DNA from: Bacteroidales bacterium | GTDB lineage: Bacteria > Bacteroidota > Bacteroidia > Bacteroidales > Bacteroidaceae | Direction: 5' to 3' | Assembly (NCBI GenBank): GCA_018064685.1 | Contig: JAGHUS010000024.1 | Location: 1-64,000 of the forward strand | DNA length: 64,000 nt | Shown here: one piece after another, positions 452 through 18,733 of the stretch | Layout: each line of letters begins with the position of its first letter | Numbering within the stretch: position 1 is the stretch's first letter | Notes under the pieces: generated by a model | The model's database searches: none | What the model was told of the DNA's origin: nothing | Seen by the model: the letters and a program-made list of their open reading frames with translations, nothing else | Translations under genes and position numbers: made by a program

Positions 452-1195
452 TTATCCTGCCTTGCATTCTACCTTATACACTTGTTCCCGTTCTGTTTCT
501 TTCAGTATCAGCAGGCGGCGCAGGTCAGAGGGCAGAGGACACTGTGCTCGACCTCCATTTGTCTCTTTGAATCGTTTGATGAAGTTATACACATCTGGGA
601 GTTCTTGCTTCAATCGTGTTCCAAAGTTGTTCTTCTTTCCACGGTAAAGCAGTCGGATGGTATCACCCTTTACCTGGCGGTTGGCATTGGTGATCTTTGC
701 ATCATACAGCGTACCATTGAAGAGCAATTGTACATCAACACCAGAGCCACGGGGAATGTAATGACCTACGGCTTTGAATATTACCTCATGAAACTTATGC
801 TCTATGGTAAAGCCGTATTCGAAGGGTGACCAATCCACGGCGTGTGTCAGCAGAACCTCGCCCTCCACAATTTCATCTTCGCGTACGGAGGTTACAATAT
901 CTGCCGTATCACACTCTTCGTATTTCTTTGGCTTTCGTCCTACACGTCCAATCTTTCTGTTGCCCGTCTTTACCACAATGCCTTGCGCAGGATCATAATC
1001 CACTATGAGCGTAAGTGGCTGACGTAAGCCTTTTATCAGAGGTGTTGCAACTGCCTGCATGCAGGGTAGCAACTCTTCCTCTACATAAGCCTTTTCTGCC
1101 TGCTCCAATCTTTTCATCTGATCTTTGCTGACAGGCAAGCCAAGCTCTTCCATCTGACTGACGGCATTATACAGTTGTTCCAGTTCCTTATTCAT
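452..1195 (-). CDS. Unknown protein, last gene of the Mod/Res/DndD/HerA-like operon
   Basis: A 247-aa protein of no family I can name. It begins four bases after the stop of the 163-aa gene, so it is very probably translated with the rest of the operon. Residues 1-40 look alpha-helical (ELEQLYNAVSQMEELG). The middle is basic (TGNRKIGRVGRKPKK). The C-terminal half alternates strands in a compact beta-rich domain (VDVQLLFNGTLYDAKITNAN, then GDTIRLLYRGKKNNFGTRL), which could bind DNA or hold a degenerate nuclease core, but no PD-(D/E)XK or HNH motif is clear. It has no signal peptide or membrane segment. Its fixed place behind an ATPase and a putative DNA-reading protein suggests an effector or specificity subunit. 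That role is inference. Confidence 0.75.
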   Translation of the reverse strand: MNKELEQLYNAVSQMEELGLPVSKDQMKRLEQAEKAYVEEELLPCMQAVATPLIKGLRQPLTLIVDYDPAQGIVVKTGNRKIGRVGRKPKKYEECDTADIVTSVREDEIVEGEVLLTHAVDWSPFEYGFTIEHKFHEVIFKAVGHYIPRGSGVDVQLLFNGTLYDAKITNANRQVKGDTIRLLYRGKKNNFGTRLKQELPDVYNFIKRFKETNGGRAQCPLPSDLRRLLILKETEREQVYKVECKAG

Positions 1196-1199
1196 ACGC

Positions 1200-1691
1200 C
1201 TAAATCATGTCCAACAATGTTCTTCGTATGGCTTCCCTCGATGCACCTGTCTTCATCATCTCAAACAACGTGCCATCCAGTTCCGCATATTCGTAGCCTT
1301 TGCGCAGCGAAGACACGTTTACGCTACCTCCCTCTTTCCAGTCGGCACTCTTCTCCAATCGCCAGAAGGCTTCGTGCTGCATGTGGTAGAAGGGGTTGGC
1401 AATGTTGCACTTGAAGGGGTATCTTCGCGTCAACTCCAGTTCCAATCCTTCTGCCACCATAAACACACCTTGTTCCTCCTCACCGTCCACCAGAATCTTC
1501 CACAGACGCTTGAACTCCTTCTGTAGTTCTTCGTCCAGACGAATCCTGTTGTCCACAATCTTACCTTTCTCCATCAGCTCCATGATGGTCAATAGCAACA
1601 CCGGTTTGTGAGGAGCCTTGAAGCCCTTCATCACCGCACGGTTCATCCGTTGCAACTGGTCGAGGTGTTCCTGGAGTGGAGTCATTGTCAT
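1200..1691 (-). CDS. Small protein resembling the N-terminal DNA-reading domain of ScoMcrA-type restriction enzymes
   Basis: A 163-aa cytoplasmic protein. Residues 24-45 (APHKPVLLLTIMELMEKGKI) followed by an acidic helix and an F-x-x-x-W pattern, then ANPFYHMQHEAFWRL near residue 100, match what I recall of the N-terminal domain of HNH restriction enzymes that read modified or phosphorothioate DNA (hKP-LLL ... NP-F-L ... FW-L). No HNH or other nuclease motif follows, so this would be a stand-alone reader rather than a full nuclease. It lies 4 bases after the HerA-like gene and 4 bases before the 247-aa gene. The resemblance is from memory of the motif, not an alignment. Other helical DNA-binding folds remain possible. 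Confidence 0.7.
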   Translation of the reverse strand: MTMTPLQEHLDQLQRMNRAVMKGFKAPHKPVLLLTIMELMEKGKIVDNRIRLDEELQKEFKRLWKILVDGEEEQGVFMVAEGLELELTRRYPFKCNIANPFYHMQHEAFWRLEKSADWKEGGSVNVSSLRKGYEYAELDGTLFEMMKTGASREAIRRTLLDMI

Positions 1692-1695
1692 GCTT

Positions 1696-3294
1696 TTATA
1701 TCAAGTGTGTCACCTTTACTTTCTTCCAATGTTTGCCTATGCCGAGAGCCATAGCTTGTGCATCCTTGGTGATAAGCTCGCCTTTCTGAAGTCCTGCTAT
1801 TCCCTGCTTCAACTCCTGAAGGGCATTGCCGCTCACACCAAACAAATCCTTCAGCACGCCATCGTTCTGCTGTTGCTGACGCATGATCAGGGGGTACTGC
1901 GCGTTAGCATAGAAGTCAAAATGCTTGGTCTTGAAGCTTTCCATATTCTGTGTGGCGAGAATCACACTCATACCTTTGTTTCGTCCTACGGCAATCAGAT
2001 TCTGCAGCGGTTTGTTTTCAAAGTTCAGCATGTAATGCGCCTCATCGATGATGGTGAAGTGGCGAATTTCCACACGCTCGTCATTGACTGCCTGACCAGG
2101 AAGCTTCTCGTAGATGCTGTTCAGCTTTGACGTAACGAAATACACAATGGCTTTAGCCATGATGCCATCCTTCTCAAACTGCCCCAGATTGATAATGTAG
2201 CAACCCTGCATTAGATCAATCTTGTCCGACTCAGCAAAGATGTTGTTTCTTATCAGCTGGCTTAGTACGGATTTTACACTGTCCATGTCGTCCTGCTTCT
2301 TCTCGGGCATCAGCTGAGTGTAGTTGTCCAGCACCTCCTGGAAGGTGATAGGCTTCTGTCCCTTAGCCTTGTACGCATTGATGATGGCTTCGCTCAGTCG
2401 GTTGTCCATGTTGGCACTTATCTTGGCTGACGAGATTGAGCACAAGGCGTTGGCAAGTGTTGTCGAATAAAGGTTTATCTCGTTGACGGGGCGACCTGTA
2501 AAGTCCTTGAACGGAGTGAATGGCAGAGGCTTCTCCATCGGATTGAGGATAGCTGAGCTGTCCGTCTCGAACTTCGATAGCCATGCTGCATTGGCAGGGT
2601 CAGAGAACTCGCCCTTATAGTCAAACAGCAGGAAGTTTACCGGGTAGTGAGTGTCTGATGACGCCATGCGTATCTGGTTGATGAGCACTGCCAGCAGGTT
2701 TGATTTGCCCGAACCTGTTGTTCCTGCCACCAATATCTGTGTGTTCGCAATAGCACGGCTGTTGATGTCGAGTGCTGCATCCATTCCGTCCTCATACTTG
2801 CCTATGTAAAGGTTCAGCTCTGGAATGTCCATCAGCGACCTGCCAACCTTCATCGGTGAGTAGTGGAGCCATTCGTCAATACCTCCCTCTGCCATAAGGA
2901 TGTCGCGACCTCTCAGCATCTCGCACACCAGTGCCTTGCTGACGAAAGTCGAGTTTTGCCAATCGGCATCAACGTCCTTGTATCTCAACTTAATGAGCGC
3001 AAGGAATACGCTCTTGATGTTCGATTTGGTGAAGAACGAGCCGGCCAGAGGTTGATTACCCGAGGTGCTTGGTATGGCTTCTATCTTTTCCTTGCTTCGA
3101 GGTGCATTGTCGCTCAATCCTACCAGCAGGCAGATACGCATCACCGTACTGAGGTTAAGCACAACAGGTCTTACCGACTCCGAGTATTCCTTCAGATTAA
3201 GCCTTTGTTCGAGCGAGTGCTTAACGTCCTCAAGCAAATCATGTGTTTCCTCAAGGAGTTTCAAACCTTCAAGTTTTATGTCTTGTACCTTCAT
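1696..3294 (-). CDS. HerA-like ATPase with a DndE-like N-terminal region
   Basis: A 532-aa protein. Walker A is GTTGSGKS at 191-198, Walker B is IIDEAH at 415-420 and a sensor-like ATQN sits at 447-450, the arrangement of HerA/FtsK-family DNA-pumping ATPases (DUF87 type). These usually form hexameric rings that work with a nuclease. The first 130 residues precede the ATPase and are helical. The stretch VMRICLLVGLSDN followed by a Gly/Asn loop and a second helical segment recalls DndE, the small DNA-binding subunit of Dnd phosphorothioation systems. That part is inference. The gene starts 3 bases after the DndD-like gene ends, so the two ATPases are made together. No membrane segment is present. 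Confidence 0.88.
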   Translation of the reverse strand: MKVQDIKLEGLKLLEETHDLLEDVKHSLEQRLNLKEYSESVRPVVLNLSTVMRICLLVGLSDNAPRSKEKIEAIPSTSGNQPLAGSFFTKSNIKSVFLALIKLRYKDVDADWQNSTFVSKALVCEMLRGRDILMAEGGIDEWLHYSPMKVGRSLMDIPELNLYIGKYEDGMDAALDINSRAIANTQILVAGTTGSGKSNLLAVLINQIRMASSDTHYPVNFLLFDYKGEFSDPANAAWLSKFETDSSAILNPMEKPLPFTPFKDFTGRPVNEINLYSTTLANALCSISSAKISANMDNRLSEAIINAYKAKGQKPITFQEVLDNYTQLMPEKKQDDMDSVKSVLSQLIRNNIFAESDKIDLMQGCYIINLGQFEKDGIMAKAIVYFVTSKLNSIYEKLPGQAVNDERVEIRHFTIIDEAHYMLNFENKPLQNLIAVGRNKGMSVILATQNMESFKTKHFDFYANAQYPLIMRQQQQNDGVLKDLFGVSGNALQELKQGIAGLQKGELITKDAQAMALGIGKHWKKVKVTHLI

Positions 3295-3297
3295 AAC

Positions 3298-5313
3298 TTA
3301 AAAATCGTATGTTTGAAGTCCGAAGTAGTCTTCAGAGATGGTTGTACATTGTTCCTCCTGGTTTCTGTGCAGGGTGTAGGTTCTTGCCACATACGCCATG
3401 ATCTTCTTGAAATCATTCTCTGTGGTGATTTCGGTGTCGGTGCTCAGCAGGATGGTTTGATGTGCCAGGTCGGGGAAATACTTGTTGATGATCACATCAC
3501 GGCTTTCCTTGTCCAGCACACCCATCACGGTGTCTATCATCACTGGTGGATCGTAGTCGCCCAGCTCATAGAGCACCTTCAACAGCACCTGCATCACCGT
3601 CTGCTTGGCACCTGCATTCAGCTGACTGAGGTAGATTTCGTTGCCATTCTTATGGAATATCTTGAACGAGATTTCCTCCGAATCGTCAGCCGACAGTTCC
3701 ACTCTGCCGATGTAACCTGCATAGATCACCAGATTGATGTTGAGCTGTTCCTTCATCATGCGCTCTATGCTTGCCTTCTTGGCGTTGAGCAGTTTCTTCG
3801 ACAGTGTCTTGAAGAAGTCAGGCAACTTGCACAGCATGTCGTACTGTGGATCTGGCACCTGTGGCATGTCGTAGTCGTAGGTCGAGATTTTCTTTTCCAG
3901 CTCCTTTATCTCGTTCTTCTTGGCAGCTATCTTGCCTTTCAGCTCTTCTATCTTTCGGTCGTTGGCTTCGTAGAGTTCAATGATGCTGTAGTCGCTGCCG
4001 GTCAGAGCTCTTGTGTATTCCTCCAACTGCTTCTCGCGCTTTGGCATGTCCTCCAGTTCCTGATTGATGCTCACACGACGTTCGTCGAGCGTAGTGAACG
4101 GATTGGAGTAACCCTGCTGCACAAGGTTCTTCAGCACCTGCGTATCCACTTCGTTCAGGAATCCATACTTGTCGTTGTAGTCATCGCTGTCATCCTGCAC
4201 TCTCTTTATCTCGCCCACGATGGTGTCAACGTCTATCTTACCCTCCACACGGTATCTGTCCTCAATGAGGTCGATGATGTTGCGGGTTACTCTTCTTATC
4301 TGCTCGTCGTTCAGGATGTTGCTCCTTGCCGAAGCCACCTCGTCCTTCTCGTTCAGTATCAGCTCCACCTCGGTTCTGACGATGCTTGCCAGTTTTGGCA
4401 TGATGACTTTCAGCTCCAGGTCTTTCGAGAGAGCCTCAGCATCCTGCCTGTAATCCTTTTCCTTCTTGTAGTAGTTACGGATGGCTTCTTCTATCTGGCG
4501 CATCTTGTCGCGTATCACCTCGTCCGAGTTGCGTCCCTCCTTCAGCTGCTCATACTGCTGCTTGCGGTCATTGGCGTAGTTCAATGCCTCGCTGTATGCC
4601 TCGTTCAGCTGGGTGAGTTCCCTCTCCCTTTCGACTTTGCTCTTGGTCAGGTTCGTGTATTCTGCACGCAGGTTCTCGTTCTCCAGGCGCTCAGCCTTCT
4701 TCTCGGCAAGGAAGGATGCTGCCGCTGTCTGTAGCTGGGTGTACTTATTGAAGCCCATCACCGAGTTGATGTTCTTCATGATGAGCTTGTTGATCTGTTC
4801 CTCTTTCACCAAATCTGAGGTCTTCATGGCATCAAAGAGGAAGTAGTTGCTCAGCTCTGCTGGCAGGTTGGCTGAGATGATCTTGTTGACTATTGCCTCG
4901 TTGGTCGAACGCTGCACGGCTGTCGAACCAGTGCCATAGACAAAGCTGTTGCCGTTCATGTTGAGGACAACGCTCTCCAGCACACGTCCGTCAGTGAACT
5001 GATACGAGCGGCGAAGCTTGTAAGGTGTCTCCTGACCAAGGACAACGCCCGAGAAGGACACTTCCAGCACAATGTTCTTGCCGTCCATGCCTCGCTCGTT
5101 CTTCACGCCCGAGTTGAACACCTCCTCAAAGGCTCTCTTGTTGGGTATCTTCAACCCATACAGGGCGTGGTAGATTGCGTCAAAGAGTGTCGTCTTACCA
5201 CAGCCATTTGCACCGCCTATCAGGATGATGGGCCTGTCGTCAGTAACCTCCAGATTAAGATCGAGGTTTTTGTACGTCTTATAGTTTTCAATATAAATAC
5301 GTTTCAGTTTCAT
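3298..5313 (-). CDS. DndD-like SMC-family ATPase
   Basis: A 671-aa protein with the split ABC ATPase of RecF/Rad50/DndD proteins. Walker A is GGANGCGKTT at 33-42, the signature-like LNAGAKQ is at 565-571, Walker B is VMIDT at 591-595 with the following GVLD, and LLSTDTEI is at 622-629. The last two motifs closely follow the end of DndD (DTP-G-LD ... LLSTDTE). Residues roughly 190-480 form a long charged coiled coil. There is no CxxC zinc hook, unlike Rad50. In Dnd systems DndD nicks or opens DNA for sulfur insertion. Here no cysteine desulfurase or DndC is visible, so the job is probably restriction or sensing. The start overlaps the stop of the 74-aa gene by four bases (ATGA). Confidence 0.88.
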   Translation of the reverse strand: MKLKRIYIENYKTYKNLDLNLEVTDDRPIILIGGANGCGKTTLFDAIYHALYGLKIPNKRAFEEVFNSGVKNERGMDGKNIVLEVSFSGVVLGQETPYKLRRSYQFTDGRVLESVVLNMNGNSFVYGTGSTAVQRSTNEAIVNKIISANLPAELSNYFLFDAMKTSDLVKEEQINKLIMKNINSVMGFNKYTQLQTAAASFLAEKKAERLENENLRAEYTNLTKSKVERERELTQLNEAYSEALNYANDRKQQYEQLKEGRNSDEVIRDKMRQIEEAIRNYYKKEKDYRQDAEALSKDLELKVIMPKLASIVRTEVELILNEKDEVASARSNILNDEQIRRVTRNIIDLIEDRYRVEGKIDVDTIVGEIKRVQDDSDDYNDKYGFLNEVDTQVLKNLVQQGYSNPFTTLDERRVSINQELEDMPKREKQLEEYTRALTGSDYSIIELYEANDRKIEELKGKIAAKKNEIKELEKKISTYDYDMPQVPDPQYDMLCKLPDFFKTLSKKLLNAKKASIERMMKEQLNINLVIYAGYIGRVELSADDSEEISFKIFHKNGNEIYLSQLNAGAKQTVMQVLLKVLYELGDYDPPVMIDTVMGVLDKESRDVIINKYFPDLAHQTILLSTDTEITTENDFKKIMAYVARTYTLHRNQEEQCTTISEDYFGLQTYDF

Positions 5314-5534
5314 TTCTTAATCTCCTTTAGTGCCTTTTTCAGGATCTTGGCTACTTTCTTATCCTCAAGATTAGCATCGTTTTGGTTATTACGTTCTTCG
5401 TGGAATGGTTTCAGCACAAAGTCTTTCAGCCACTCTGCGTCTATACCTTCCGTCTGGCATGCGTTCTCTATGAGCTGCATGTCTTCCTGCCGTATGCCGT
5501 AGTGCAGGAATGTTCTATCTACGCCTTTTTTCAT
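5310..5534 (-). CDS. Small component between Res and the DndD-like ATPase
   Basis: A 74-aa soluble protein, all predicted helix. The N-terminal part has a short hydrophobic pattern (EDMQLIENAC, IDAEWLKDFVLKPFHE) and the C-terminus is strongly basic (KKVAKILKKALKEIKK). It starts four bases after the Res gene ends, and its stop overlaps the start of the DndD-like ATPase gene. Small helical proteins are regular partners of DndD-like and other ABC ATPases in defence operons, and I think this one belongs to a group annotated as DNA-modification-system small proteins, though I cannot confirm that here. A link between the ATPase and the nuclease or DNA is likely. No catalytic motif is visible. Confidence 0.8.
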   Translation of the reverse strand: MKKGVDRTFLHYGIRQEDMQLIENACQTEGIDAEWLKDFVLKPFHEERNNQNDANLEDKKVAKILKKALKEIKK

Positions 5535-5538
5535 TGCC

Positions 5539-7911
5539 TTATTTGTTGTTCAAAACATTCAGATCCAGTAATGTCCACCCATTCGTGTCCTTGGTGTCTT
5601 CGATGATGCCATCGGGATAGTACCAGTTCTGCGTGCCGGGGTGATTTATCAGCACGCCACCTGCCATCTTTTTGCCCTTCTCGCGCTCCGCAAGGATGTA
5701 GTTGTAGAGGGCGTTGTTCTTCTCCGGTGCATCGTCATCGCTGTTGCACGTCTTGGTGTCCAGCAGCAGGATGGTGCTGTTCTTCAGTCGCACGATGAAA
5801 TCCACATAGAAGCAGCGTTTCTGTCCAGCCGAGTCGGTGTATGGCACGGCAAAGTGCTGTTTGCCTTCGTCGCCGTTCTTGTACCACCAATCCACCACGT
5901 CATTCTGTACGTCCATCCATCTGGCAAAGTTGTACTCGGGCGCACTCACCTTTTGCTGTTCGAAGTAGGGCACGAGGGCATGGTTGTGTATCTCGCCCTC
6001 ACGGCTTGTGCAGGCATTGCTGTTGTAGGGACGCTGTTCGGGCACTTGCCAGATGTATTCTACATAGCGTTTCTCGGCAGCCTGCTGCTTCTCCTGTGTC
6101 TTGGTGTAGCGCAGCAGGGCCGACTTGATGATGTCCTCAAACTGTGGTCGGTTGGCATGGTAGAGCACTATCTTTGGCACTTCCGTCTCAAATACACCCA
6201 GATAATCCTCCAACGCACTCTCTATGGCTCCCTTCAGCACCGGCATACTGTCGTACTTCGAGAAGCTGCCCACATTCCTGCGGCAGAACTGCTTAAAGAG
6301 GGCGTCCAGCTCGTAGGCGTTCATGGCTATGCGTGCCTTGTCGGTTATCTCCACCTGTCCGTCCAGTTTGGTGATGTGGGTGTCCTTTGGTATCTCTACC
6401 ATGATGCGTGCCACGTCCGTCTCTATGCCTTTCTTGTGCAACTCGCGGCGGTTCATCAACTGCACAGGGCTCAGGCCACCTACCTGCTCGCCATCCTTGC
6501 GCTCCACCTCGTCGTCATCGCCCAGCATTTCTGCCAAGGTGAAGAGGTAGTTACTGCTCAGCTGCCATGTATCCTTCATCACCTCAAAGAACACCTTGCG
6601 GAACGTGCTGCCCAGACGGTTACGCTGTGCTTTGTTCTTGTCCATATAGACGGATGGCAGGGTGATGTTCACGAGGTCGCGACGTTGCTGTGCCTCTACG
6701 GTCGAGAGGTAGTTCATGTCGTCCTGAACTATCTGTATGATGTCCTTCGACAGGTTGGTATAGACGTAGCCGTGGTTCAGCACGTCGTTCTGATAGAAGC
6801 GTTGCTCGGGCATGCGCAGTATGCGTCCCACCGTCTGGGTGGTGAAGGTTACGCTCTCCAGTTCGCGGAAGATGAGCAGTACACTGGCTCGCGGACAATC
6901 CCAGCCGAGGGCAATGGCTTGCTTGAAGAGTAGCACCTCGGTCATGTCGTTTGCCTTTGTGATGTTTGCCAGGTTCGGACTTTTGTCCTTCGAGAGCCAG
7001 CATGCCAGTCGGCCGTTCTCTTCGCTGATGCCGCACTGGGTGTCAAGATACACTTTCATCTCTTCAGCAATGGTCTTCTCGCCGGCACTCAGCGCATCGC
7101 TACTGTCGTTAGGCAGCTGGATGAGCAGCAGCGGATTGATGTCGTACTGGGCGTATGCCTTTGCCAGTTCGTTGCGTTTCTTCAGGGCTTTTTCCAGCAG
7201 TTGCTGGTTGATGGTGAAGGCGGATTGCTCCTTGCTGCCCTTCACGTTGGGGTTCAGCTCCACGCCCTTCTTTGTCATCTCCTCCGCCACCACGTCCTGA
7301 CGTTTCACCATCACGGCATTGTATGTCTGTGTGACGGGTGTGGCTGAGATGCGCAGTTCTACCTTTGGTTGTATGCTCCTCAGCACCAACTCGCTCTTCT
7401 TGGCGTTGCGACCGGCAAACATGTGCTCTTCATCAATCACTACCACCACAGGAATGTGCTTCTCCACCTTCGTCTTGCGTATCAGTTCGTAGAGGGTACG
7501 GCTGCGCTCGTTGTCGCGGATGAGCACGGCATTGTCCTTGTTGATGCTCTCCCAGTTCAGGAACAGCACGTCACCGGGATGAAGGCCTTCCAGATGGTCG
7601 CACTCGTCGAACATCACGGGGCGGAGGCTTCGCTTCTCGCTGAAGAAGTTACGCATGGAGCGGTACGACTGTTGGTGCAGTTTGTTGGGCGCAATCCACA
7701 CCCATGCCACCTGCGCGTGCTTGCATTCGCCGTTGTAGGGCAGTTCCTGCGTCATCTCGTCCAGCAGACAACTCGTCATCACCGTCTTGCCGGCTCCCGT
7801 GGGGGCTTTGAACACGAGTTTCTGACGGTCGTCCGAGTCATTGAGCATGTCTATCATCTTGCGCTTCAGTTCATCGACTGCCTTGCGCTGGTAATCTTTC
7901 AGTGTTATCAT
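5539..7911 (-). CDS. Type III-like restriction helicase-nuclease (Res)
   Basis: A 790-aa superfamily 2 helicase fused to a C-terminal nuclease. Motif I is PTGAGKT at 37-43, motif II is DEEH at 160-163 and motif III is SAT at 189-191. The RecA-like second lobe includes VGRILRMPEQRFY. Near the end, FYVDF and LLLDTKT (Asp about 704, Asp 718 and Lys 720) fit a PD-(D/E)XK active site. This is the arrangement of type III Res subunits, though shorter than the roughly 900-1000 aa of EcoP1 Res. The start overlaps the stop of the methyltransferase gene by four bases (ATGA), so Mod and Res are made in step. The helicase would act on DNA bearing unmodified Mod sites. Whether the extra ATPases replace or assist it is unknown. 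Confidence 0.92.
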   Translation of the reverse strand: MITLKDYQRKAVDELKRKMIDMLNDSDDRQKLVFKAPTGAGKTVMTSCLLDEMTQELPYNGECKHAQVAWVWIAPNKLHQQSYRSMRNFFSEKRSLRPVMFDECDHLEGLHPGDVLFLNWESINKDNAVLIRDNERSRTLYELIRKTKVEKHIPVVVVIDEEHMFAGRNAKKSELVLRSIQPKVELRISATPVTQTYNAVMVKRQDVVAEEMTKKGVELNPNVKGSKEQSAFTINQQLLEKALKKRNELAKAYAQYDINPLLLIQLPNDSSDALSAGEKTIAEEMKVYLDTQCGISEENGRLACWLSKDKSPNLANITKANDMTEVLLFKQAIALGWDCPRASVLLIFRELESVTFTTQTVGRILRMPEQRFYQNDVLNHGYVYTNLSKDIIQIVQDDMNYLSTVEAQQRRDLVNITLPSVYMDKNKAQRNRLGSTFRKVFFEVMKDTWQLSSNYLFTLAEMLGDDDEVERKDGEQVGGLSPVQLMNRRELHKKGIETDVARIMVEIPKDTHITKLDGQVEITDKARIAMNAYELDALFKQFCRRNVGSFSKYDSMPVLKGAIESALEDYLGVFETEVPKIVLYHANRPQFEDIIKSALLRYTKTQEKQQAAEKRYVEYIWQVPEQRPYNSNACTSREGEIHNHALVPYFEQQKVSAPEYNFARWMDVQNDVVDWWYKNGDEGKQHFAVPYTDSAGQKRCFYVDFIVRLKNSTILLLDTKTCNSDDDAPEKNNALYNYILAEREKGKKMAGGVLINHPGTQNWYYPDGIIEDTKDTNGWTLLDLNVLNNK

Positions 7912-9680
7912 ATTCTTACCTCCTCATCGTTTTGGGGTAATACTTGCTTATAAACTTGCAGCAGGGCTTCGGGCAGGGCGCAGAGTTCTACCTTGTCTCT
8001 AAGCGCAAGGAACTCGTCCTCGTAAGCGTAGGCTCCGTTGCTGAATACGTAGATCTTCAGTTTGCCTTCGCCATCGGGTTGCTGCTGGAGTAGGGGCACA
8101 ATGTGCTCCACGGCTCGTTCGTCGAAGATAAGGAGCATCCGCTTGCCTTGTGCTGACGTAAAATAACGTAGAATGCTTGGCTTGAACTTCATGCCGCAGA
8201 ACTCGCGCACCTCGTTGTAAATACCTTCCTTTACGCAGAGCATGTCGGTGGCGGCACGCATCAGCTCACGCTTGGCTTCATAGGTGTGTTCGCGTGGCAG
8301 GAAGTCCATGGTGTAGTAGCGTAGGTTGTTTGCGGTCAAGCCTTCCACGGCTACGCCCTTAGGAGTGGTATAACCCTGAATGACTCGCTTATTGCGTTCG
8401 TAGGTCACATCACGGCAGATGTTGTTCTCGTTGTTCGTCACGAGGATGCATTGGCGATGACCTCCGTCTTCTGCATTCAACTGCATAGTGGCGTGAAGGG
8501 TCGTGCCGGAGCCTGCGAAGAAGTCGAGGACTATTGCATCTTTCTTTGTCCTTACTATTGTGGACAAAATACGTTTTATCAAAGTTGACGGTTTAGGGAA
8601 ATCAAATGTACGTACACCAAATATGCTCGTAATTTCAGCTGTTCCATGAGAAGTGCTACAAAAATCAGAAGTTATTAGATTTCGGTATGGAGTACTTCTT
8701 TCTTTTGGATTTCCTTCATTGTCAACTTTAGCGTATCTCTTGTTATATACATTCCATCCACTTTTTGACTTTTTGAATACAACGAAACCGTTATCTAATC
8801 CCCATTGAACTTTTGTTTGGCTCCAAAGATAATTCCATCCTTCTGTTGATGGTTGCTCTGTTCCGCCTGGGTAACGTAAAGTACCATCAGGCATCTCAAT
8901 TGGGAAGTTTAACGCCTCCGAGTAGTGACCGCCAACTCGACGTCTATCCATTTTGTCTAAGGAATAACGCCCTCTTGTATCGACGTATTCATCTGATAAC
9001 GTATAATTGTCTTCGTCAGTAGGTTCGCCATCAAATTGACATGATTGCCTAAATTTTGTATAAACAAGGATGTTCTCTGTTACGGTAACTATCTCAGTAC
9101 CAGTGTTTGATCCAGCTGTTGATTGCCATACTATATTAGAAATGAAATTGTTTCCACCAAACACCTCATCACACAGCAACTTCAGATTTGCCTGTTCATT
9201 ATCATCAATAGAGATAAAGATAACGCCCTTGTCGCTGAGAAGTTTCTTGGCAAGGCGCAGACGCTTCTCCATGAATGAGAGCCACTTGGAATGACGGTAG
9301 CCATCCTCGCTGTCCACAAACGAGTCATTATACACAAAGTCCTTGTTGCCAGTGTTGTATGGTGGATCGATATAGATTACGTCCACACGTCCCTCGTGGG
9401 TATAACTGAGAGCCATCAGCGCCTCCAGGTTATCACCCTCTATGAGCACATGGTCAGGCGCATCCTCAGCATCACTGATGATAGCCGCCTCCTTGTCCTC
9501 ACGAAGCACGGGGAACGCACTCTTCAGTCGTTCCTCAGCATCTTCGGGGTGATTCTCCCATACCAGGCCATACTTCTTCTGTCGGCGGAGCGACCCAACA
9601 ATCTCAGCCTTCTCATCGTTGCTGAGATCAGCCATCTCCATTATCTTGCCAATGAGTTCTTCTTTTTGTATCATATCCAA
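7908..9680 (-). CDS. Type III-like site-specific DNA adenine methyltransferase (Mod)
   Basis: A 590-aa beta-class amino-methyltransferase. The catalytic motif IV, DPPYNTG, is at 105-111, and the S-adenosylmethionine motif FAGSGT is at 388-393. The order catalytic then AdoMet-binding defines the beta class, and the D-P-P-Y form points to N6-adenine. Residues about 190-340 between them form the target recognition region, and the C-terminal 180 residues continue as in type III Mod proteins. It is the first gene of the operon and is preceded by about 800 bases with two strong hairpins but no clear consensus promoter. It would both mark self DNA and set the site read by Res. No simple-repeat tract suggesting phase variation is present in the gene. 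Confidence 0.93.
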   Translation of the reverse strand: MDMIQKEELIGKIMEMADLSNDEKAEIVGSLRRQKKYGLVWENHPEDAEERLKSAFPVLREDKEAAIISDAEDAPDHVLIEGDNLEALMALSYTHEGRVDVIYIDPPYNTGNKDFVYNDSFVDSEDGYRHSKWLSFMEKRLRLAKKLLSDKGVIFISIDDNEQANLKLLCDEVFGGNNFISNIVWQSTAGSNTGTEIVTVTENILVYTKFRQSCQFDGEPTDEDNYTLSDEYVDTRGRYSLDKMDRRRVGGHYSEALNFPIEMPDGTLRYPGGTEQPSTEGWNYLWSQTKVQWGLDNGFVVFKKSKSGWNVYNKRYAKVDNEGNPKERSTPYRNLITSDFCSTSHGTAEITSIFGVRTFDFPKPSTLIKRILSTIVRTKKDAIVLDFFAGSGTTLHATMQLNAEDGGHRQCILVTNNENNICRDVTYERNKRVIQGYTTPKGVAVEGLTANNLRYYTMDFLPREHTYEAKRELMRAATDMLCVKEGIYNEVREFCGMKFKPSILRYFTSAQGKRMLLIFDERAVEHIVPLLQQQPDGEGKLKIYVFSNGAYAYEDEFLALRDKVELCALPEALLQVYKQVLPQNDEEVRI

Positions 9681-9716
9681 ATTCCATTTATTCCCTTAGC
9701 AAAGGGGGATAAAAAA

Positions 9717-9797
9717 GTAGGTACCTTACTTCTGCTCGCTCATCATTCTCGGCCTACCACAGCCTTGCACTATAAGCTTACAGTTTCAGATACCTAC
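9717..9797 (-). ncRNA. Candidate structured leader or small RNA upstream of mod
   Basis: On the minus strand GTAGGTATC (9797-9789) pairs with GGTACCTAC (9725-9717) around a 63-base inner part that can form further pairs (GGC/GCC around TGTGGTA). The closing arm is followed directly by six T, as in an intrinsic terminator. It lies 37 bases before the mod start. It could be an attenuator-like leader or a discrete RNA. There is no homology evidence. Confidence 0.3.
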
Positions 9798-9820
9798 ATA
9801 GGGATATGATACACCCATAA

Positions 9821-9856
9821 TGCGTGCGAGAGGACGCAAAACGCCCTCAGCACGCA
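9821..9856 (-). promoter_or_regulatory. Strong hairpin upstream of mod
   Basis: TGCGTGC at 9821-9827 pairs with GCACGCA at 9850-9856, and inner GAGG/CCTC and CG/CG pairs extend the stem nearly to the loop. It is 140 bases upstream of the mod start. It could be an operator, an RNA leader element, or a terminator of transcription arriving from the Schlafen gene. Confidence 0.4.
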
Positions 9857-10267
9857 AACGGGGGATACTATCTACCCGTGGGCATCTACTTCTGCCTTGC
9901 TTTTGATAGTGCATTCAGATTGTGGTAGTTTAGAATGATCAAAAACAAGCGTCCATAAACGCTTTTTCCAATAAGTTCATTTCTTGCCCGCTGGCAAGTG
10001 GTCATTTTCAACGATGACGATACGTTTTACTATCCTTTATTTCGACAGAGCTCAATATAAACTCTCAGCTCAGGACAGGCTCATACGCTATCGCTACGAT
10101 AACCATTATATACTCAAACCTTTTTGACCTTCGGTCTTCCTCCTCCGCACCTCGGCAATTCAAGCATGCTTGATTGCTCTCGGTTTGTCGTCGGTTACCG
10201 CCATGATGAGCGTTGGGCGGTTCCTTATATATTAACGGATGAACGTCCGTCTTATTGCCTTTTCGTT

Positions 10268-10378
10268 ACTTTATCCCTTATTTGGGATTCGGTATTGTTT
10301 TTTATCCCTTGTTTTGCCTCTTTATCCCTTGGAACGGTCTCTTTATCCCTTGGAACTGCCTCGTTTATCCCTTGTCTT
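10268..10378. repeat. Short tandem array of TTTATCCCTTG
   Basis: TTTATCCCTT recurs five times; the last four copies are spaced by 21-22 bases and the first is about 30 bases upstream of the second. Between copies the filler is variable (for example GGAACGGTCTC and GGAACTGCCTCG). This is a small minisatellite just after the stop of the Schlafen-like gene. Confidence 0.75.
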
Positions 10379-10401
10379 CCGGTATAACGATTTTTTTCGA
10401 T

Positions 10402-10488
10402 ATCAACGAGTTCATCAACGATGTCGTCAGTATACGAGAATTTATCAACGACATCGTCGATATTTTTACATCTGTCGTTGATAAAGTT
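10402..10488. repeat. ATCAACGA / TCGTCGAT imperfect repeats
   Basis: Two units of about 28 bases beginning near 10408 and 10436 share GAG-TT-ATCAACGA-TCGTC, and a further inverted TCGTTGAT lies near 10475. They adjoin the TTTATCCCTT array. The function is unknown. Confidence 0.55.
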
Positions 10489-10498
10489 CTTCGGACAA

Positions 10499-12085
10499 CT
10501 ACTCCTTGCTTGTGGGTTCACCACCAGATGATTGACAGTAGTACCGTTGATTTGGAGCATGAGTTGTTGCTGGATTTGTCATTTTCAGCACTCCTAACTT
10601 TACTAAGTCTGTCACATATTTCTTGGTGTTCTTCGAATGAGTTGACACACCTATATGTTCCAAAATCTCGCGACTATTGCGAGGTTCGACACAATACTCC
10701 AACACTTTTTGCTGTTTTGGTGTCAAAGTTGTCGCAATATTGGTGTCAAAGTTACTCTTTCGAGTGTCGGAGCTTGCCTCTTTAGTGTCCGAGTTCGCAT
10801 CCTTGGTGTCTGAGTTCTCTACCAGAGCAGTATCAACCAACTTCGGACCTGCTTTTTGCAAAGCAGCAATGGTGTATGGGATGGTCAGTTTTGTTCTGTC
10901 TGGATTATGAGTGATCTCATATTCCGGATTGAATTCAACATACTTCTTCCATGTGTTGATAAAATCGGGTATGCCGCTACCAGCACGTTCGCCAATGTCC
11001 ACAAGTCCGAACATCTTCATGACCGTCACATTGCGCGGGTCGGATATGCCACCACTCAAAGCGACTTTCAAGCCAATACGGATGTCACCGGGATTGGTGA
11101 ATGTCATGCTGTTCACATTCTTTACGATGACGATTCCTTGCCGTCCGTAGTGATCGGCGTGCGCACAGATATTCAGGAGCACTTCGCGTAGGGCAAGGTG
11201 AAGAACCGTCTCATCTACTCTGTCCATGCCCTTTGCGATGAAGGGCACAGGAAGGTCGGAAGTGATGCGTGGATACACTCTGAAGAAGAAGTCGTAGAGG
11301 TTGCCACTCCAATCTCCAGAGATGGAAGTAATACGGCTCACCCATCGTGCTCCGCTGTTGTCCTTCTCCTGATAATCAAGAAAATAGTCGGGGAACTCCC
11401 TCACAATGTCATATTCCCTGCCGAACATCAGAAGACCTGCTGCCGTAGGGTGAAACTTCATATCCTCCTCGCATACAGCCATGGCACCTATTCGGCGAAG
11501 GAAGACTTCGTCATTGTCATCGTTCCATACATGTGCTGGATGGAACTGGCGGAAACGGTTGCGATACTTGTGTACTGTATCCATATCAAAGACCGTCATG
11601 TCCATCGACTTCAACACCTTCAGGTCGAGGCTCCTGTCCGAAGCATCGCGATACATGGCCGACACCTCGTCCTGCGAGCAGAGGTGATCTCCTTCGAAGT
11701 CTCTTCGGTACGTACCTCTCATTGGATCCTGCCCCACATACACAGGCTTCTGCCTTCTGTCCACTTTCGGTACACGAATCACGAGGATCGACTTGCCTTC
11801 AACTTCCTGTTCATGCACCATTTCGTTTGTCAGGACGTTGAGGCTTATCTTCTGGCGGTTGTTTACCATGTTCCAGAAGTCCGTCTTCAACTTATGCACA
11901 TCCTCAACTCCCGATACAACAAACGAATGGTCGTCCTTTTCGTCCACCCCCAGCAGGATGATGCCACCATCGGTATTGGCGAACGAAGAGTACGTCTCCC
12001 AAAGACTGCCAGGGAGTCCTCCCTTAGCCTTCTTTGCTTCTATGCGGTTGTTCTCTCGGTACCCAGAGAGGTTGTTGATATCCAT
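10499..12085 (-). CDS. Schlafen/AlbA_2-domain ATP-binding protein
   Basis: A 528-aa protein. Residues 8-60 carry the AlbA_2 (Schlafen AAA_4-type) signature, with an N-R-x-E-x-K start followed by SFANTDGGIILLGV. Residues about 300-400 resemble the GHKL-like part found in such proteins (LREVLLNICAHADH ... GLVDIGERAGSGIP). A linker near residues 437-465 has four SDTK-like repeats, and the end forms a winged-helix-like segment (PKQQKVLEYC ... NSREILEHIG). Members are often called putative DNA-binding or RecG-related proteins and are frequent beside restriction systems. Whether they regulate or defend is unsettled. An 818-base gap separates it from mod, so it is probably a separate unit. Confidence 0.85.
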   Translation of the reverse strand: MDINNLSGYRENNRIEAKKAKGGLPGSLWETYSSFANTDGGIILLGVDEKDDHSFVVSGVEDVHKLKTDFWNMVNNRQKISLNVLTNEMVHEQEVEGKSILVIRVPKVDRRQKPVYVGQDPMRGTYRRDFEGDHLCSQDEVSAMYRDASDRSLDLKVLKSMDMTVFDMDTVHKYRNRFRQFHPAHVWNDDNDEVFLRRIGAMAVCEEDMKFHPTAAGLLMFGREYDIVREFPDYFLDYQEKDNSGARWVSRITSISGDWSGNLYDFFFRVYPRITSDLPVPFIAKGMDRVDETVLHLALREVLLNICAHADHYGRQGIVIVKNVNSMTFTNPGDIRIGLKVALSGGISDPRNVTVMKMFGLVDIGERAGSGIPDFINTWKKYVEFNPEYEITHNPDRTKLTIPYTIAALQKAGPKLVDTALVENSDTKDANSDTKEASSDTRKSNFDTNIATTLTPKQQKVLEYCVEPRNSREILEHIGVSTHSKNTKKYVTDLVKLGVLKMTNPATTHAPNQRYYCQSSGGEPTSKE

Positions 12086-13595: not shown

Positions 13596-16469
13596 TTAGA
13601 AGGGAGCTTCTTCGTCATCATCATCGAGGTCATTGGCAGCAGCGAATGGGTCGAAGTTAAGTTCCGTCTGAATGGGCTCTGGTTTCGGCTTTGCCTCTTC
13701 TGCCATACGTTCGGCCTCGGCAGTACTGCGTACGTAGATATAACGTACCTGAGCACCAGTCTCGTGCTTACGCCAACGCTTTCCGTCCTTATCACTGCCT
13801 GTCACATCCTTTGGATTGAAGACGGCAATATGTTCGGCATAGTCGCAGTATTCTTGCATCTTCTTGACGAAAGGTTCGAGATCTACAGCATGCGACTGTG
13901 CCTCAGCCCTATATGACTGATAAACATCATTCAACTTCAACTCTACATCAAGGCGTCCGCCACCTGGCTGGAAATAGTCCTCAGCCCACTGCTCGAAGGT
14001 CTTACCCATAGCAGCCTTCTGCTGGCGCTTGTGGATGCTGTCAAGGGGTGGCAGTATCTTGTTGTCACCCTCAACGGCAGTGAGGTAGAACTGCTCGCAC
14101 TGGATGAGGAAGGCAATGTCAGCCTCCCAACCCTCATAGCGGTCGTCGATGAGGTTGTGGCCGAAATCGTCAGCTACACTGCGATTTTCCAGATAGTCGT
14201 TGTTCTTTGTACGCTCATGGTAGTAGTCGGAGAATACAGAAGGCAGAAGACGAGCCTCTGCACTGGAGTCATTTCTTCGAATGATGTGGTTGGTGGCAAA
14301 GAGCAATTTGGGGCTATCCTTGAAGTCAATAACTACTTCATTCTCTTTTTTCTTCTCTGTAGGGAAACTGTCTGTGATGTAGATGAAGTAATCTCTGATA
14401 TCAAAATTTTTGACGCATTCATCTATAAAAGCCAGGTCTGTAAACTGATCGATTCTGGAGAAATAGAAACGAGCTTTGTCATCATCAAGTTTCTTACCTT
14501 TGAATTCTTCTGAATCCAAATATGCGCACATAATCTTGCCATACAACGACTTACCTGAGCGTCCATTGCATTCGTCGTCCTCTCCGATGTGTCCATCATA
14601 ACAGATTACGCCCCATGCACGACTCATCATCTTGTAACGATGCAGCAGATAGCCGTAGCAGAAAATCTTGTTGACGAGCGACTGCATCTGCTCTGCTATC
14701 TCCTCCTCGGTTAGTCCTTCGCCATTGATGCAGAACTTATGGGTGCGAGCATACTCAGCTTTGCCATCGGGATCGTCCTCGAAGCGGTACTCCATCTCCT
14801 TGCGCCAATGGATGCGCGAGGCATTGATGAGGTAGCAGAACACTTCGCTATCGGTGGAATGGACGGTGATGCTGTACATGCCATTCTCCTGAGCCTTGAT
14901 GGTGAACATAGGTTCGTGTGGCACATAGTTGTGCTGGATGATCTGATGCTTCCATACATAATGAGCATCGGCAGGCATACGGCTGTACTCATGGCGAGTG
15001 ATGCTATCCTTGGTCACCTCCACGCAGCAGTTCTGGAGATAGAACCACTGAGATGTTGGTGTGGCAGATGAGAAATTGAGTTCAACCTCGGTCATATTGC
15101 TGCCAAGTAACGAGGTGATGTCGCGTGAGCGCATTACTTTGTCAATAACCATATCGGGAAGTCCCTGTTGTTGCATCCATGATTTTATAAATCGGTGGAC
15201 GTCGCTGAGCTTGACCTCTTCGACAACAATGCCGTTGATGCGGATGTAACGTGCCTCCTTGAACAGAGGATCGCGCATTACCATGTAGCCGTTAAGCCAG
15301 AGGAAGTAGCAAAGGCGATTGAGGGAAAGATCTGTCTGCCAATGTTCCTTGCCGTTGGCTCCATCCTTCTCGCGCCACATGTCCCAGAATTTTGCTTGGC
15401 GTGCCTGAAGAAAGAGTTTGTCGAAGTCATGCTGGCTGGGATGCAAGCGAAGGTAGTCCTTCAAATCCTTCAGAGCCTTGCCGCGCTTGTCGTGAAAGGA
15501 GCCCAGTTGCTTTTGAGGAAGCCAGATGACCTTGATGTCCAAGTACTGAAGGCCCAGTTCTTTGGCCTTATCTATGCCCGTCTCATCTGCATCGAAACAA
15601 ACGTAGATCTTCTTGGCATACGTCTTTAACTGATTGTACATCTCAGGTGTAAGCATTTCTGTCTCGCTGCCCAACCATACCGGCTGCACACCCATGGCCA
15701 AACAGCATGCTGCGTCACTACCTCCACTGACGATTACTATCTTATCGAGAGGCTGTTGGTCATTACGATTATATGCACGTTTGAGTGCAGCCAAACCAAA
15801 AAGGTAGTTCGCGGGTTTGTGGCCGATGCTGTAGAATCGCCAATCCTTGTCGAAGCTAAAAGGCTGATATACTTTGTAGAAAAAGCATTCGTTGCCTGAT
15901 TCGTCAATATAGGGGTTCTTCTGAATGAATATGGGGTAGGTATCTGTGCTGTAACGTGTGATTACCTGGCCATCCTTGATACTGGCGATACACTCTGCTG
16001 AATACCAACCAAGTTCATTCAGATGTTCTGGCTTGATCATTCGTCCAAAGACCTTTGCTTCAGACTCCGAGATGGATTCTTTCAATTTGAAAGTCTTGTC
16101 ACCATCATGCTCATCTGCATTGGCAGGGCGCTTCTCGATACGAGGACGGTTGACATGAGGATCAAGCTGCTCGGTTACGCCATATTGCTCGGCAAGCATC
16201 ATCACTGCCACATAGAAGTCTGACTGCGGCATTCCCTTCTCGCGCATGAATACATCAATAGGTGAGAATATAGATTCCTCACCGCTTCTGTTAAAATTCT
16301 TGATGACATAATACTCTCTTCCGTTATGAGGGCCATAAAGGCGTGCGGAGGGATTCTTATCATCAGGAAAATATGAGAAGTTCTTGTTCTCGGTAGCATG
16401 AGGAACAATATCTAGGATAATATCCTTGCCACCATTTGTGGCAATATAGATGTCTTTAAGCTCTATCAT
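13596..16469 (-). CDS. TOPRIM primase-like protein with SF3-type helicase domain
   Basis: A 957-aa replication protein of the kind carried by phages and integrated elements. A TOPRIM domain spans about 240-330. The D-x-D motif is present (CFDADETG, 291-298), but the usual glutamate of motif 1 is replaced: the sequence is IVSGGSDA at 246-253. The C-terminal half has Walker A NGRSGKS at 635-641 and Walker B LAFIDEC at 679-685, as in SF3/D5-like helicases. No CHC2 zinc finger is seen. The last ten residues are acidic. The start overlaps the end of a 54-aa reading frame, suggesting coupling. It may prime and unwind DNA for an element now embedded in the chromosome. Confidence 0.85.
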   Translation of the reverse strand: MIELKDIYIATNGGKDIILDIVPHATENKNFSYFPDDKNPSARLYGPHNGREYYVIKNFNRSGEESIFSPIDVFMREKGMPQSDFYVAVMMLAEQYGVTEQLDPHVNRPRIEKRPANADEHDGDKTFKLKESISESEAKVFGRMIKPEHLNELGWYSAECIASIKDGQVITRYSTDTYPIFIQKNPYIDESGNECFFYKVYQPFSFDKDWRFYSIGHKPANYLFGLAALKRAYNRNDQQPLDKIVIVSGGSDAACCLAMGVQPVWLGSETEMLTPEMYNQLKTYAKKIYVCFDADETGIDKAKELGLQYLDIKVIWLPQKQLGSFHDKRGKALKDLKDYLRLHPSQHDFDKLFLQARQAKFWDMWREKDGANGKEHWQTDLSLNRLCYFLWLNGYMVMRDPLFKEARYIRINGIVVEEVKLSDVHRFIKSWMQQQGLPDMVIDKVMRSRDITSLLGSNMTEVELNFSSATPTSQWFYLQNCCVEVTKDSITRHEYSRMPADAHYVWKHQIIQHNYVPHEPMFTIKAQENGMYSITVHSTDSEVFCYLINASRIHWRKEMEYRFEDDPDGKAEYARTHKFCINGEGLTEEEIAEQMQSLVNKIFCYGYLLHRYKMMSRAWGVICYDGHIGEDDECNGRSGKSLYGKIMCAYLDSEEFKGKKLDDDKARFYFSRIDQFTDLAFIDECVKNFDIRDYFIYITDSFPTEKKKENEVVIDFKDSPKLLFATNHIIRRNDSSAEARLLPSVFSDYYHERTKNNDYLENRSVADDFGHNLIDDRYEGWEADIAFLIQCEQFYLTAVEGDNKILPPLDSIHKRQQKAAMGKTFEQWAEDYFQPGGGRLDVELKLNDVYQSYRAEAQSHAVDLEPFVKKMQEYCDYAEHIAVFNPKDVTGSDKDGKRWRKHETGAQVRYIYVRSTAEAERMAEEAKPKPEPIQTELNFDPFAAANDLDDDDEEAPF

Positions 16470-16864: not shown

Positions 16865-18478
16865 CTATTCTGTGTAGGGCTTACTCAGCGATGTCACGAC
16901 CGACTCATAATATCTGGTTTCTTCATCGGTCATCTCAGTTTCTTCTAATCGCCTTATCTTCCTGCCTACATTATCTGAGAACTTTTTCAGGTCATCGCCA
17001 GGTAATGGCAAAGCACCCAAACCAATTAATGCATCCACAATCTTCTTTGGGAACTTCAATGAACAATCTCGCGCACATTTCATAGCTATGCATGCCTTAA
17101 TAAATATGGGGACTAAGGTAGGCTCGTTAGGATCAAGAAGTTTCTTGCCAGTTTCGCGAACAATCAGATTTACTGGAAATTCTTCATCGCACCATCTGTA
17201 AGTAGGCAGAAATACAGATTCTACACTTTGTAGGTATTTCTCGGGTATGTCAGGGTGAATGATTTCCTTGTATCCATCAATTTCCTTTTTTAGCTTCAGG
17301 ATTTCGGCATCAAGTTTAGCTGTACTTTTGTCAGATACAACGCCGCTTTGTCCACTCTTTAATCTTTCTATCTCCACTTGCAGGTCCTCCAATCGAGGAC
17401 GACCGGGGAGTGGTGGGATGCGTTGAGCAATGAGAGTCCACAACTCATCATTCTTATATATATAGTCGTTTTCATGATTCTCAATAAACGCACGCATGTT
17501 TATCAGGGTTTTCATTACTCGGTCGGTCTTCTCGGGTAGAAGATCATAGAGCGCAATCATGAAGAGCATTTCGATAATACAACCTACGCAATACTGGGAA
17601 GTGATGACAGTTATTTTCAGACCGTTGCCCTTTGTTTCGCTATTGAAATACTTTTTGTTGATGTATGCATGAATACGTGGAATTTCCAACTCAGGTTTGT
17701 TTGCATTCAATACACGATTGACACATTCCTCTGCTTCTGCAAAGACATTGACGTAGTCCGTTTCAGCCAGCTCAACATTGTCTTTCATGGACACAACACT
17801 CAAATAAGAGAGCACGCTGTCATAACCAAGTCCATAGACAGGATGGTCAATGTAATATTGTAAATCGTGGCTTCCTGATGTTGATTCCTCATTTCCGTCA
17901 TCTGCCATTGCTTGGGCTATCTTGTGCATGGTTGGAATGAAGTAGCGGTCATAAAGAGCGTTAGCTATGTGCTTGCTTTTGAAAGCTTCATCATTGAGAC
18001 ATGAGCATTCGCGTAAGTATTCCAGAAGGAACTCGCGAGTAGGCTTAATCTCTGGCCAAATTTCAGTATTAATACAAGCAAGGAAATAGGCACCGAAAAT
18101 TATAGCCTGTGCAACCTCAGACTTTATATTTCGGTAAGCGAAGCACCGTTTGTTGTCAACGAACTCTTCGCGAACATCGTTATCGCCATATTTCTTAAAC
18201 CTGGCGCTGTTTAGCTTAAACATGCTGGACATGTCAGACTTAGGATGTTCTCCAATGGCAAATGTGTAGGTGGAAGAAACTGCTGTGAGATATTGAGGTA
18301 ATGACATTATATCGTCCAGCGCTACACCATAATAATAGTCTTCATCTTCCTGTAATGGGTTGAGGTAAAAACACTCTTCCATGGTTTTGGCGAAGATGTT
18401 ACCAATATACTGACCGAATATTGGGTCATAATCTGTTTGTCTGTCGAAATCTGAGTATATATTAAAATGATGATACAT
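16865..18478 (-). CDS. Large protein of unknown function with a central coiled coil
   Basis: A 537-aa protein I cannot assign to a family. An upstream Met would give 567 aa, but a Bacteroidetes promoter lies inside that extension, so the start MYHHFNIYSDFD is preferred. The first half is helical with many aromatic residues (VAQAIIFGAYFLACINTEIW), and hydrophobic stretches near 300 (YCVGCIIEMLFMIALYDLL) look like buried helices rather than clear membrane spans. A charged coiled coil follows (EDLQVEIERLKSG ... AEILKLKKEIDGY). A more compact domain makes the C-terminus. It sits at the edge of the defence-rich region next to a mobile-element primase, which suggests accessory DNA. Confidence 0.7.
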   Translation of the reverse strand: MYHHFNIYSDFDRQTDYDPIFGQYIGNIFAKTMEECFYLNPLQEDEDYYYGVALDDIMSLPQYLTAVSSTYTFAIGEHPKSDMSSMFKLNSARFKKYGDNDVREEFVDNKRCFAYRNIKSEVAQAIIFGAYFLACINTEIWPEIKPTREFLLEYLRECSCLNDEAFKSKHIANALYDRYFIPTMHKIAQAMADDGNEESTSGSHDLQYYIDHPVYGLGYDSVLSYLSVVSMKDNVELAETDYVNVFAEAEECVNRVLNANKPELEIPRIHAYINKKYFNSETKGNGLKITVITSQYCVGCIIEMLFMIALYDLLPEKTDRVMKTLINMRAFIENHENDYIYKNDELWTLIAQRIPPLPGRPRLEDLQVEIERLKSGQSGVVSDKSTAKLDAEILKLKKEIDGYKEIIHPDIPEKYLQSVESVFLPTYRWCDEEFPVNLIVRETGKKLLDPNEPTLVPIFIKACIAMKCARDCSLKFPKKIVDALIGLGALPLPGDDLKKFSDNVGRKIRRLEETEMTDEETRYYESVVTSLSKPYTE

Positions 18479-18517
18479 GTAGGGAGGGTTTAAGATGATA
18501 CTTTCGCGATAACATTG

Positions 18518-18545
18518 CAAAAATAAGAAATAAATTTGGGGTTTC
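18518..18545 (-). promoter_or_regulatory. Promoter of the 537-aa gene
   Basis: On the minus strand TATTTTTG (18525-18518) fits the -7 consensus TAnnTTTG, and TTG lies about 20 bases upstream. Transcription would begin roughly 30 bases before the ATG at 18478, which rules out the longer reading frame. Confidence 0.6.
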
Positions 18546-18733
18546 GTCAAGTTTGGGCGAAAATACATGAATTTTTAAATGTTTTTGGTCGAAAATGGTG
18601 ATTTTTGATAGCCAAACTGACCATGCAAATGCCTACCAGCAAGCGATAACAGAGCATAAATGACAGGTGGAAATGGCAGTGTCTGAAAAGTAGTTAAAAT
18701 GTTGCAGAATAAGCGAAAATAATGGCTGTAAAG

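Follow-up and report, generated by a model that had tools for sequence, protein, structure and literature searches.

HerA fused to DndE and encoded beside a DndD-related ABC ATPase has already been reported, and the passages of that study covered here also describe a CxC branch with a small protein, cytosine methylases and MTaX1 (Rakesh, Aravind and Krishnan 2024, PMC10853773). The same passages propose a regulatory role for the small proteins of the CxC and Pbe systems and ask whether phosphorothioate is the only product of DndD- and CxC-centred systems, pointing to the cytosine methylases of the CxC branch. Here, we describe an operon in which DndD-like and DndE-HerA proteins are encoded with a type III methyltransferase (Mod) and its restriction partner (Res). 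It lies within positions 1 to 64,000 of contig JAGHUS010000024.1 of a Bacteroidales bacterium (GCA_018064685.1), a stretch of 64,000 nucleotides hereafter called the window, and consists of seven minus-strand open reading frames (ORFs) between 452 and 9680 with overlaps of 4 bases or gaps of 3-4 bases between neighbours. From the 5′ end they encode Mod, Res, a 74-aa small protein (sp), the DndD-like ATPase, the DndE-HerA fusion (HerA hereafter), a 163-aa protein and a 247-aa protein. That this operon is a methyl-keyed composite restriction system using a DndD-DndE/HerA scanning core is a reading of the sequence on which we are evenly balanced between acceptance and doubt.

The first five genes form a conserved core. 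A GTDB scan with the HerA alignment confirmed 173 relatives, of which the best 80 loci were kept and their gene content established by phmmer. All five core genes stand on one strand in 59 of the 80 loci, and 58 of these run Mod-Res-sp-DndD-HerA; the sole complete locus flagged as out of order (L024) owes this to an early possible start of its DndD ORF. A DndD match was present in 80/80 loci. The 21 incomplete loci, mostly short stretches, have no Mod match and nine of them no Res match either, and among the 56 loci whose sequence extends 7.5 kb or more upstream of HerA the whole core was found in 54, the exceptions being L021, with no Mod in its stretch, and L074, with a DndD fragment only. 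With the first five genes in a constant order across dozens of genomes, a chance grouping, the alternative raised by the original prediction (an earlier reading of the same DNA), can be set aside. Of the seven-gene order that it proposed to look for elsewhere, these five positions were kept, and the last two proved to be a variable reader slot. According to database records, the relatives come mainly from rumen or gut Bacteroidales, with others in Flavobacterium, Flavihumibacter, Lutibacter, Runella, Telluribacter, one metagenome-assembled Alphaproteobacteria genome and one Ignavibacteriales record. Plasmids gave no HerA match at 1e-20, none of 24 IMG/VR stretches was confirmed, and the two HerA matches in phage records were both to unverified scaffolds. 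The unverified 'Bacteriophage sp.' scaffold MT835906.1, from human faeces, carries the complete five-gene core in order (L126, 6232-14310) together with a frame at 4772-6031 that was judged integrase-like by eye, and could represent a mobile element instead of a phage. Extra genes that look defence-related by eye are found between Mod, Res and sp in L034, L040, L054, L064, L076, L078 and others; they seem to resemble Abi_2, DUF1016, RhuM, DUF262 and AAA proteins.

Both modules of the core, Mod-Res and DndD-HerA, look active from their motifs. These were followed, as was co-evolution, in 54 aligned sets, namely the window and the 53 of the 80 loci in which all five genes are near full length. 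Mod matches PADLOC MTase_III at 1.5e-102 and has DPPY in 54/54 sets and an exact DFFAGSGTT in 44, with variants in the remainder; its likely start is the ATG at 9674 rather than the TTG at 9680. Res matches ResIII at 4.1e-15, and its TG[SA]GKT, DE[EA]H, GWDCPRA and D-x-K motifs are each present in 54/54 sets; no PLD/HKD match was obtained for Res at E <= 0.1, the D-x-K motif being present instead. The pair thus carries the motifs that define type III restriction-modification (RM), a beta-class Mod with DPPY and FxGxG-type motifs and a Res with SF2 helicase motifs and a putative C-terminal PD-(D/E)xK nuclease. Since type III enzymes that make N4-methylcytosine (m4C) share DPPY, according to the part of PMC8259958 covered, the methylated base, N6-methyladenine (m6A) or m4C, is not readable from the sequence. 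Res of L013 lies in two frames (5379-7753) and a second Mod of L049 is split in two (3656-5396), these being broken copies, phase-variable copies or assembly errors.

In the second module, the DndD-like ATPase matches PADLOC DndD at 6.5e-70, with the Walker B motif PVMIDTVMG in 51/54 sets and close variants in the other 3; a C-x(1,2)-C hook within residues 200-500 occurs in a single set and is also absent from seven DndD relatives of sampled genomes. The 532-aa HerA protein matches DUF87 (2.4e-11), has the HerA part of DndH as its best PADLOC model (3.9e-28) and carries an invariant GRNKG (54/54). Its N-terminal profile matched no DndE structure, and TIGR03184 matched 1 of 25 sequences; as sequence profiles gave little, the domain was assigned by fold, and in the models the N-terminus has the DndE fold. 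The 74-aa protein scores 16.6 bits against PF20306, under the cut-off of 27.2, and 24 of the 27 members of its family match at E <= 0.01 (best 4.5e-12); the family has already been noted in Dnd systems, since its Pfam name is Sp-DndD. Family scans and fold models thus bear out the names originally given to the parts of the operon.

What this engine mostly lacks is the sulfur enzyme. DndC (TIGR03183) was searched for in 49 genomes, our own and those of 48 of the 80 loci, and scored over the cut-off in two; both matches sit on other contigs, because their coordinates exceed the ends of the contigs bearing the system. Two further genomes had weak matches below the cut-off, and 14 control genomes gave five weak matches and none over it. 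The own genome, which is 84% complete, has no DndC match and, as far as recovered, no PAPS_reduct match, against 14/14 control genomes matching the latter, in agreement with the absence of sulfur genes first noted from the operon. Distant DndE-HerA/DndD pairs adjoin a PAPS-reductase-family DndC-like gene in L092 (with DndB) and L095, so that one engine occurs with different neighbours, the sulfur enzyme included; the neighbour is of another kind in L093 and L094. There, DndD and DndE-HerA (6188-12022 and 5750-11798, respectively) adjoin proteins of 666 and 734 aa that match sigma-70 region 4, the one in L094 also matching RNA polymerase alpha C-terminal domain and helicase-associated models, and no DndC-like gene was seen within either stretch; this is possibly another variant. 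The pairing with Mod and Res suggests that a methyl mark can serve Dnd-type motors in place of sulfur.

The 3′ end of HerA is where the loci differ. An SBD and/or adapter gene is found there in 27 of the 80 loci, starting from -33 to +43 bases relative to the HerA end, and SBDs are present in 9 loci; the other 53 match neither the SBD nor the adapter profile, some of their stretches ending soon after HerA. Slot genes are present as fragments only in L007 and L032, and L014 has an adapter gene between Res and sp. In total, 39 adapter ORFs were counted in 22 loci (two in 15 loci, three in one). The adapter is joined to a B3-like domain in the window protein and six metagenome proteins, where it is clear (24.7-67.8 bits), and is weak (10-18 bits) in ten further proteins of the B3 group. 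It is also joined to topoisomerase C-terminal repeats in 5 loci by BLAST (PF13368 at 4e-41 in L008), to an SBD in L015, as a partial adapter to SBDs in L017 and L018, and to EVE in P0140, with other adapter proteins having ends without a name. In addition, P0125 joins an SBD (profile 90.4 bits) to a B3 domain and P0141 joins MTaX1 to one. By BLAST, the B3 group consists of 16 metagenome proteins plus that of the window, and the 80 loci contribute no member; the largest BLAST group of slot proteins (30 proteins) mixes types, by eye, via multidomain proteins. A first clustering of the slot proteins was replaced, having merged unlike ends.

Both window proteins of this slot may contact DNA. The family of the 247-aa protein gave no meaningful PDB sequence match, and according to the fold models its C-terminus is a B3-like DNA-binding pseudobarrel. 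The 163-aa protein matches SBDHga1 (E 7.6e-19), an assignment resting on 8h0l. Compared with the ScoMcrA pocket H116/R117(K)/Y164/P165, it keeps H28, K29 and P100 and has N99 at the Y164 position, a mapping read by eye from the residue numbers of the source paper with the register fixed by W175/W110. Equivalents of H116, R117 (lysine in most homologues) and P165 are kept in 19/19 aligned proteins. NF045808, a model of phosphorothioate-DNA-binding restriction endonucleases, matched the 163-aa protein at 2.5e-5 (23.5 bits, cut-off 180) and was not used as evidence; the NF045808 match listed for the own genome sits on another contig (C132). The two genes originally described as a modified-DNA reader and an unknown protein are therefore both placed in the variable slot, the unknown gaining a B3-like domain, and we read this slot as holding putative plug-in readers that dock through a shared adapter. 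The features of the operon are collected in the table.

Table. Features of the operon in window coordinates
Feature	Position	Strand	Details
Mod, type III DNA methyltransferase, beta class	7908..9680	-	DPPY at residue 105, DFFAGSGTT at 386
Res, SF2 helicase with C-terminal D-x13-DxK nuclease-type motif	5539..7911	-	Walker A K42, DEEH, D704/D718/K720
74-aa small protein (sp), Sp-DndD-like	5310..5534	-	PF20306, own score below cut-off, relatives above
DndD-like ABC/SMC-type ATPase, coiled coil, without CxC/CxxC hook	3298..5313	-	
DndE-HerA fusion, HerA/FtsK-type ATPase with N-terminal DndE-like domain	1696..3294	-	
DndE-like domain of HerA protein, residues 1-145	2860..3294	-	
Stand-alone SBD-like protein, 163 aa, no nuclease domain seen	1200..1691	-	pocket positions H28 K29 N99 P100
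247-aa protein, putative N-terminal adapter and C-terminal B3-like domain	452..1195	-	
Adapter module, residues 3-80 of 247-aa protein	956..1189	-	common to differently ended proteins of same slot
Predicted B3-like pseudobarrel, residues 105-247 of 247-aa protein	455..883	-	

Upstream of Mod, on the same strand, the window encodes a 528-aa protein with SLFN_AlbA_2 and RecG-C-type HATPase domains (10499-12085), possibly part of the same defence region, and two proteins of 957 and 567 aa without a Pfam match at 1e-4 (13596-16469 and 16865-18568, minus strand).

How might these parts work together? We tentatively propose, while doubting it somewhat more than we believe it, that the DndD-DndE/HerA engine is keyed to the methyl mark of the type III Mod and hands DNA to Res, aimed by interchangeable adapter-docked readers (SBD, B3, EVE, topoisomerase-repeat and others). 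Mod would mark host DNA by methylating a short site on one strand, and a DndD dimer with a DndE-HerA ring would form a DNA-scanning, translocating complex. Readers docked via the common adapter, here the SBD-like and B3 proteins, would tell the complex which DNA to hold; unmarked or foreign-marked DNA would be captured by the HerA motor and cut by Res, and the small protein would probably regulate or bridge the ATPases. The methyl mark would then take the place of the phosphorothioate of canonical Dnd. Both ideas raised in the original prediction, such a replacement and a HerA that guards DNA entry, are inferred. If the proposal is right, the reader slot with its common adapter would give a natural set of plug-in DNA-recognition modules.

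The evolutionary record bears on this proposal in both directions. Pairwise identities are strongly correlated within DndD-HerA-sp (Spearman 0.88, 0.79 and 0.78) and less so between Mod and Res (0.54). Out of 51 tree splits, DndD and HerA have 33 in common, Res has 15 with DndD, 13 with HerA and 9 with Mod, and Mod has 7 with DndD and 5 with HerA. Placing the DndD alignment on the HerA topology costs 262 log units and is rejected by the approximately unbiased test (p 0.0005, from 1000 resamplings only). Among pairs whose HerA proteins are more than 70% identical, Res identity ranges from 41 to 99%. Because identities and trees disagree, we conclude that Mod-Res has been exchanged under a stable scanning core and that Mod also changes alone. 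The tight coupling first claimed for the parts is therefore stable as an arrangement, with partners that are exchanged as the modules recombine. Such exchange fits a generic interface between the modules, and equally two independent systems.

Several results weigh against the composite system. The correlation between Mod-Res and DndD-HerA-sp is low (0.18-0.32), and the Res topology costs the DndD alignment 5066 log units; since the history of Mod-Res differs from that of DndD-HerA-sp, the modules might work separately. The ATPase, its PADLOC match notwithstanding, scores 195.9 bits with TIGR03185, under the cut-off of 245.85. The sample leans to close relatives, because HerA served as the query for the loci and the top 80 of 173 relatives were kept. 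The system is also rare: 395 sampled Bacteroidota genomes, the own one included, gave 3 HerA matches at 1e-20, the other two without core neighbours, in a survey that scored at most three candidates per genome in the matches listed and missed distant DndE-HerA genes found by another search. Orphan DndE-HerA genes with no DndD, Mod or Res match in about 19.5 kb were seen in two genomes of one genus (L096 9767-11497, L097 8718-10469). One possible explanation of the disagreement between the modules is that the operon holds two independent defences, a full type III system next to a self-contained DndD/DndE-HerA defence that ignores the methyl mark. We consider this unlikely, while giving it real weight: beside the conflict of trees and distances, the distant pairs of L092-L095 have no Mod-Res matches, and L104 has a Res relative with no Mod or DndD match nearby (L105 is uninformative on Res neighbours, its contig ending about 230 bases after Res). 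However, 54 of the 56 well-covered loci have a type III Mod-Res at the same position, with 4-base overlaps in many cases, a count from a sample chosen by HerA similarity in which other RM types were not looked for.

A role for the DndD-HerA-reader part as a fallback, killing or arresting cells in which a phage has blocked the type III system (guarding or abortive infection), is improbable. By eye, the inserted genes of some loci presumably resemble known back-up effectors. The regulatory role proposed for CxC/Pbe small proteins, in the passages covered, would also fit (PMC10853773), but among the matches listed the core proteins have no toxin or separate nuclease domain beyond Res. We find it more improbable still that the SBD-like reader detects phosphorothioated incoming DNA, the whole acting partly as type IV sulfur-dependent restriction in hosts without the sulfur mark. 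The SBDHga1 match, the three kept pocket positions and the missing PAPS-reductase homologue, as far as the own genome was recovered, all agree with it; nevertheless, the other slot readers are mostly not SBDs, and N99 replaces the lid residue Y164. This replacement is not decisive, because in the source paper just 7 of 23 homologues conserve Y164.

Methylases and several ATPases are encoded in one operon in BREX, MADS and other multi-gene methylation-based defences; with MADS the operon gave partial matches only (mad2 4.4e-7, mad8 2.6e-18), whole systems not having been searched for. From canonical Dnd (DndABCDE) it differs in lacking DndC. The HerA part of DndH is a likeness to DndFGH, whereas full-length DndH was not found, as the match of the HerA protein is confined to the HerA section of models 1389-1715 positions long; neither DndF nor DndG was among the matches listed for the seven operon proteins, the rest of the genome not having been searched. 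Type III RM of the m6A kind, and its m4C subgroup as far as PMC8259958 was covered, has the same adjacent Mod and Res with their defining motifs, without the further genes of this operon. Two of the m4C systems have an extra helicase-like ATPase, which is not equivalent to those of the window, being of the SF2 type and encoded immediately 5′ of mod. A full-text literature search, supplements being outside its scope and prior notice therefore possible, found no description of type III pairing with DndD/DndE-HerA, nor one of the reader slot, and the passages covered of PMC10853773 contain no such pairing. Of the hybrid originally called unusual, the combination of DndE-HerA with a neighbouring DndD-related ATPase had thus been published before, and it is the type III pairing that was not found described. 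As covered in PMC10853773, PbeABCD/CxC systems likewise combine an SF2 helicase-nuclease, a small protein, a DndD/CxC ATPase and DndE, sometimes with DNA methylases and an MTaX1 gene. Unlike the window, they have an HKD nuclease and cytosine-type methylases, in place of a PD-(D/E)xK-type Res motif and a type III Mod; the window DndE is fused to HerA, and there is no CxC hook. The clade-3 DndE-fused HerA proteins of the same passages have the same fusion, the same neighbour and a proposed DNA-scanning role, and differ in that the partner in the window is type III Mod/Res and DndC is missing. This coupling of DndD and DndE-HerA to type III methylation, mostly without DndC among the genomes tested, makes the question raised there directly testable: if the methyl-keyed system is real, the same DndD-HerA engine should depend on a methyl mark.
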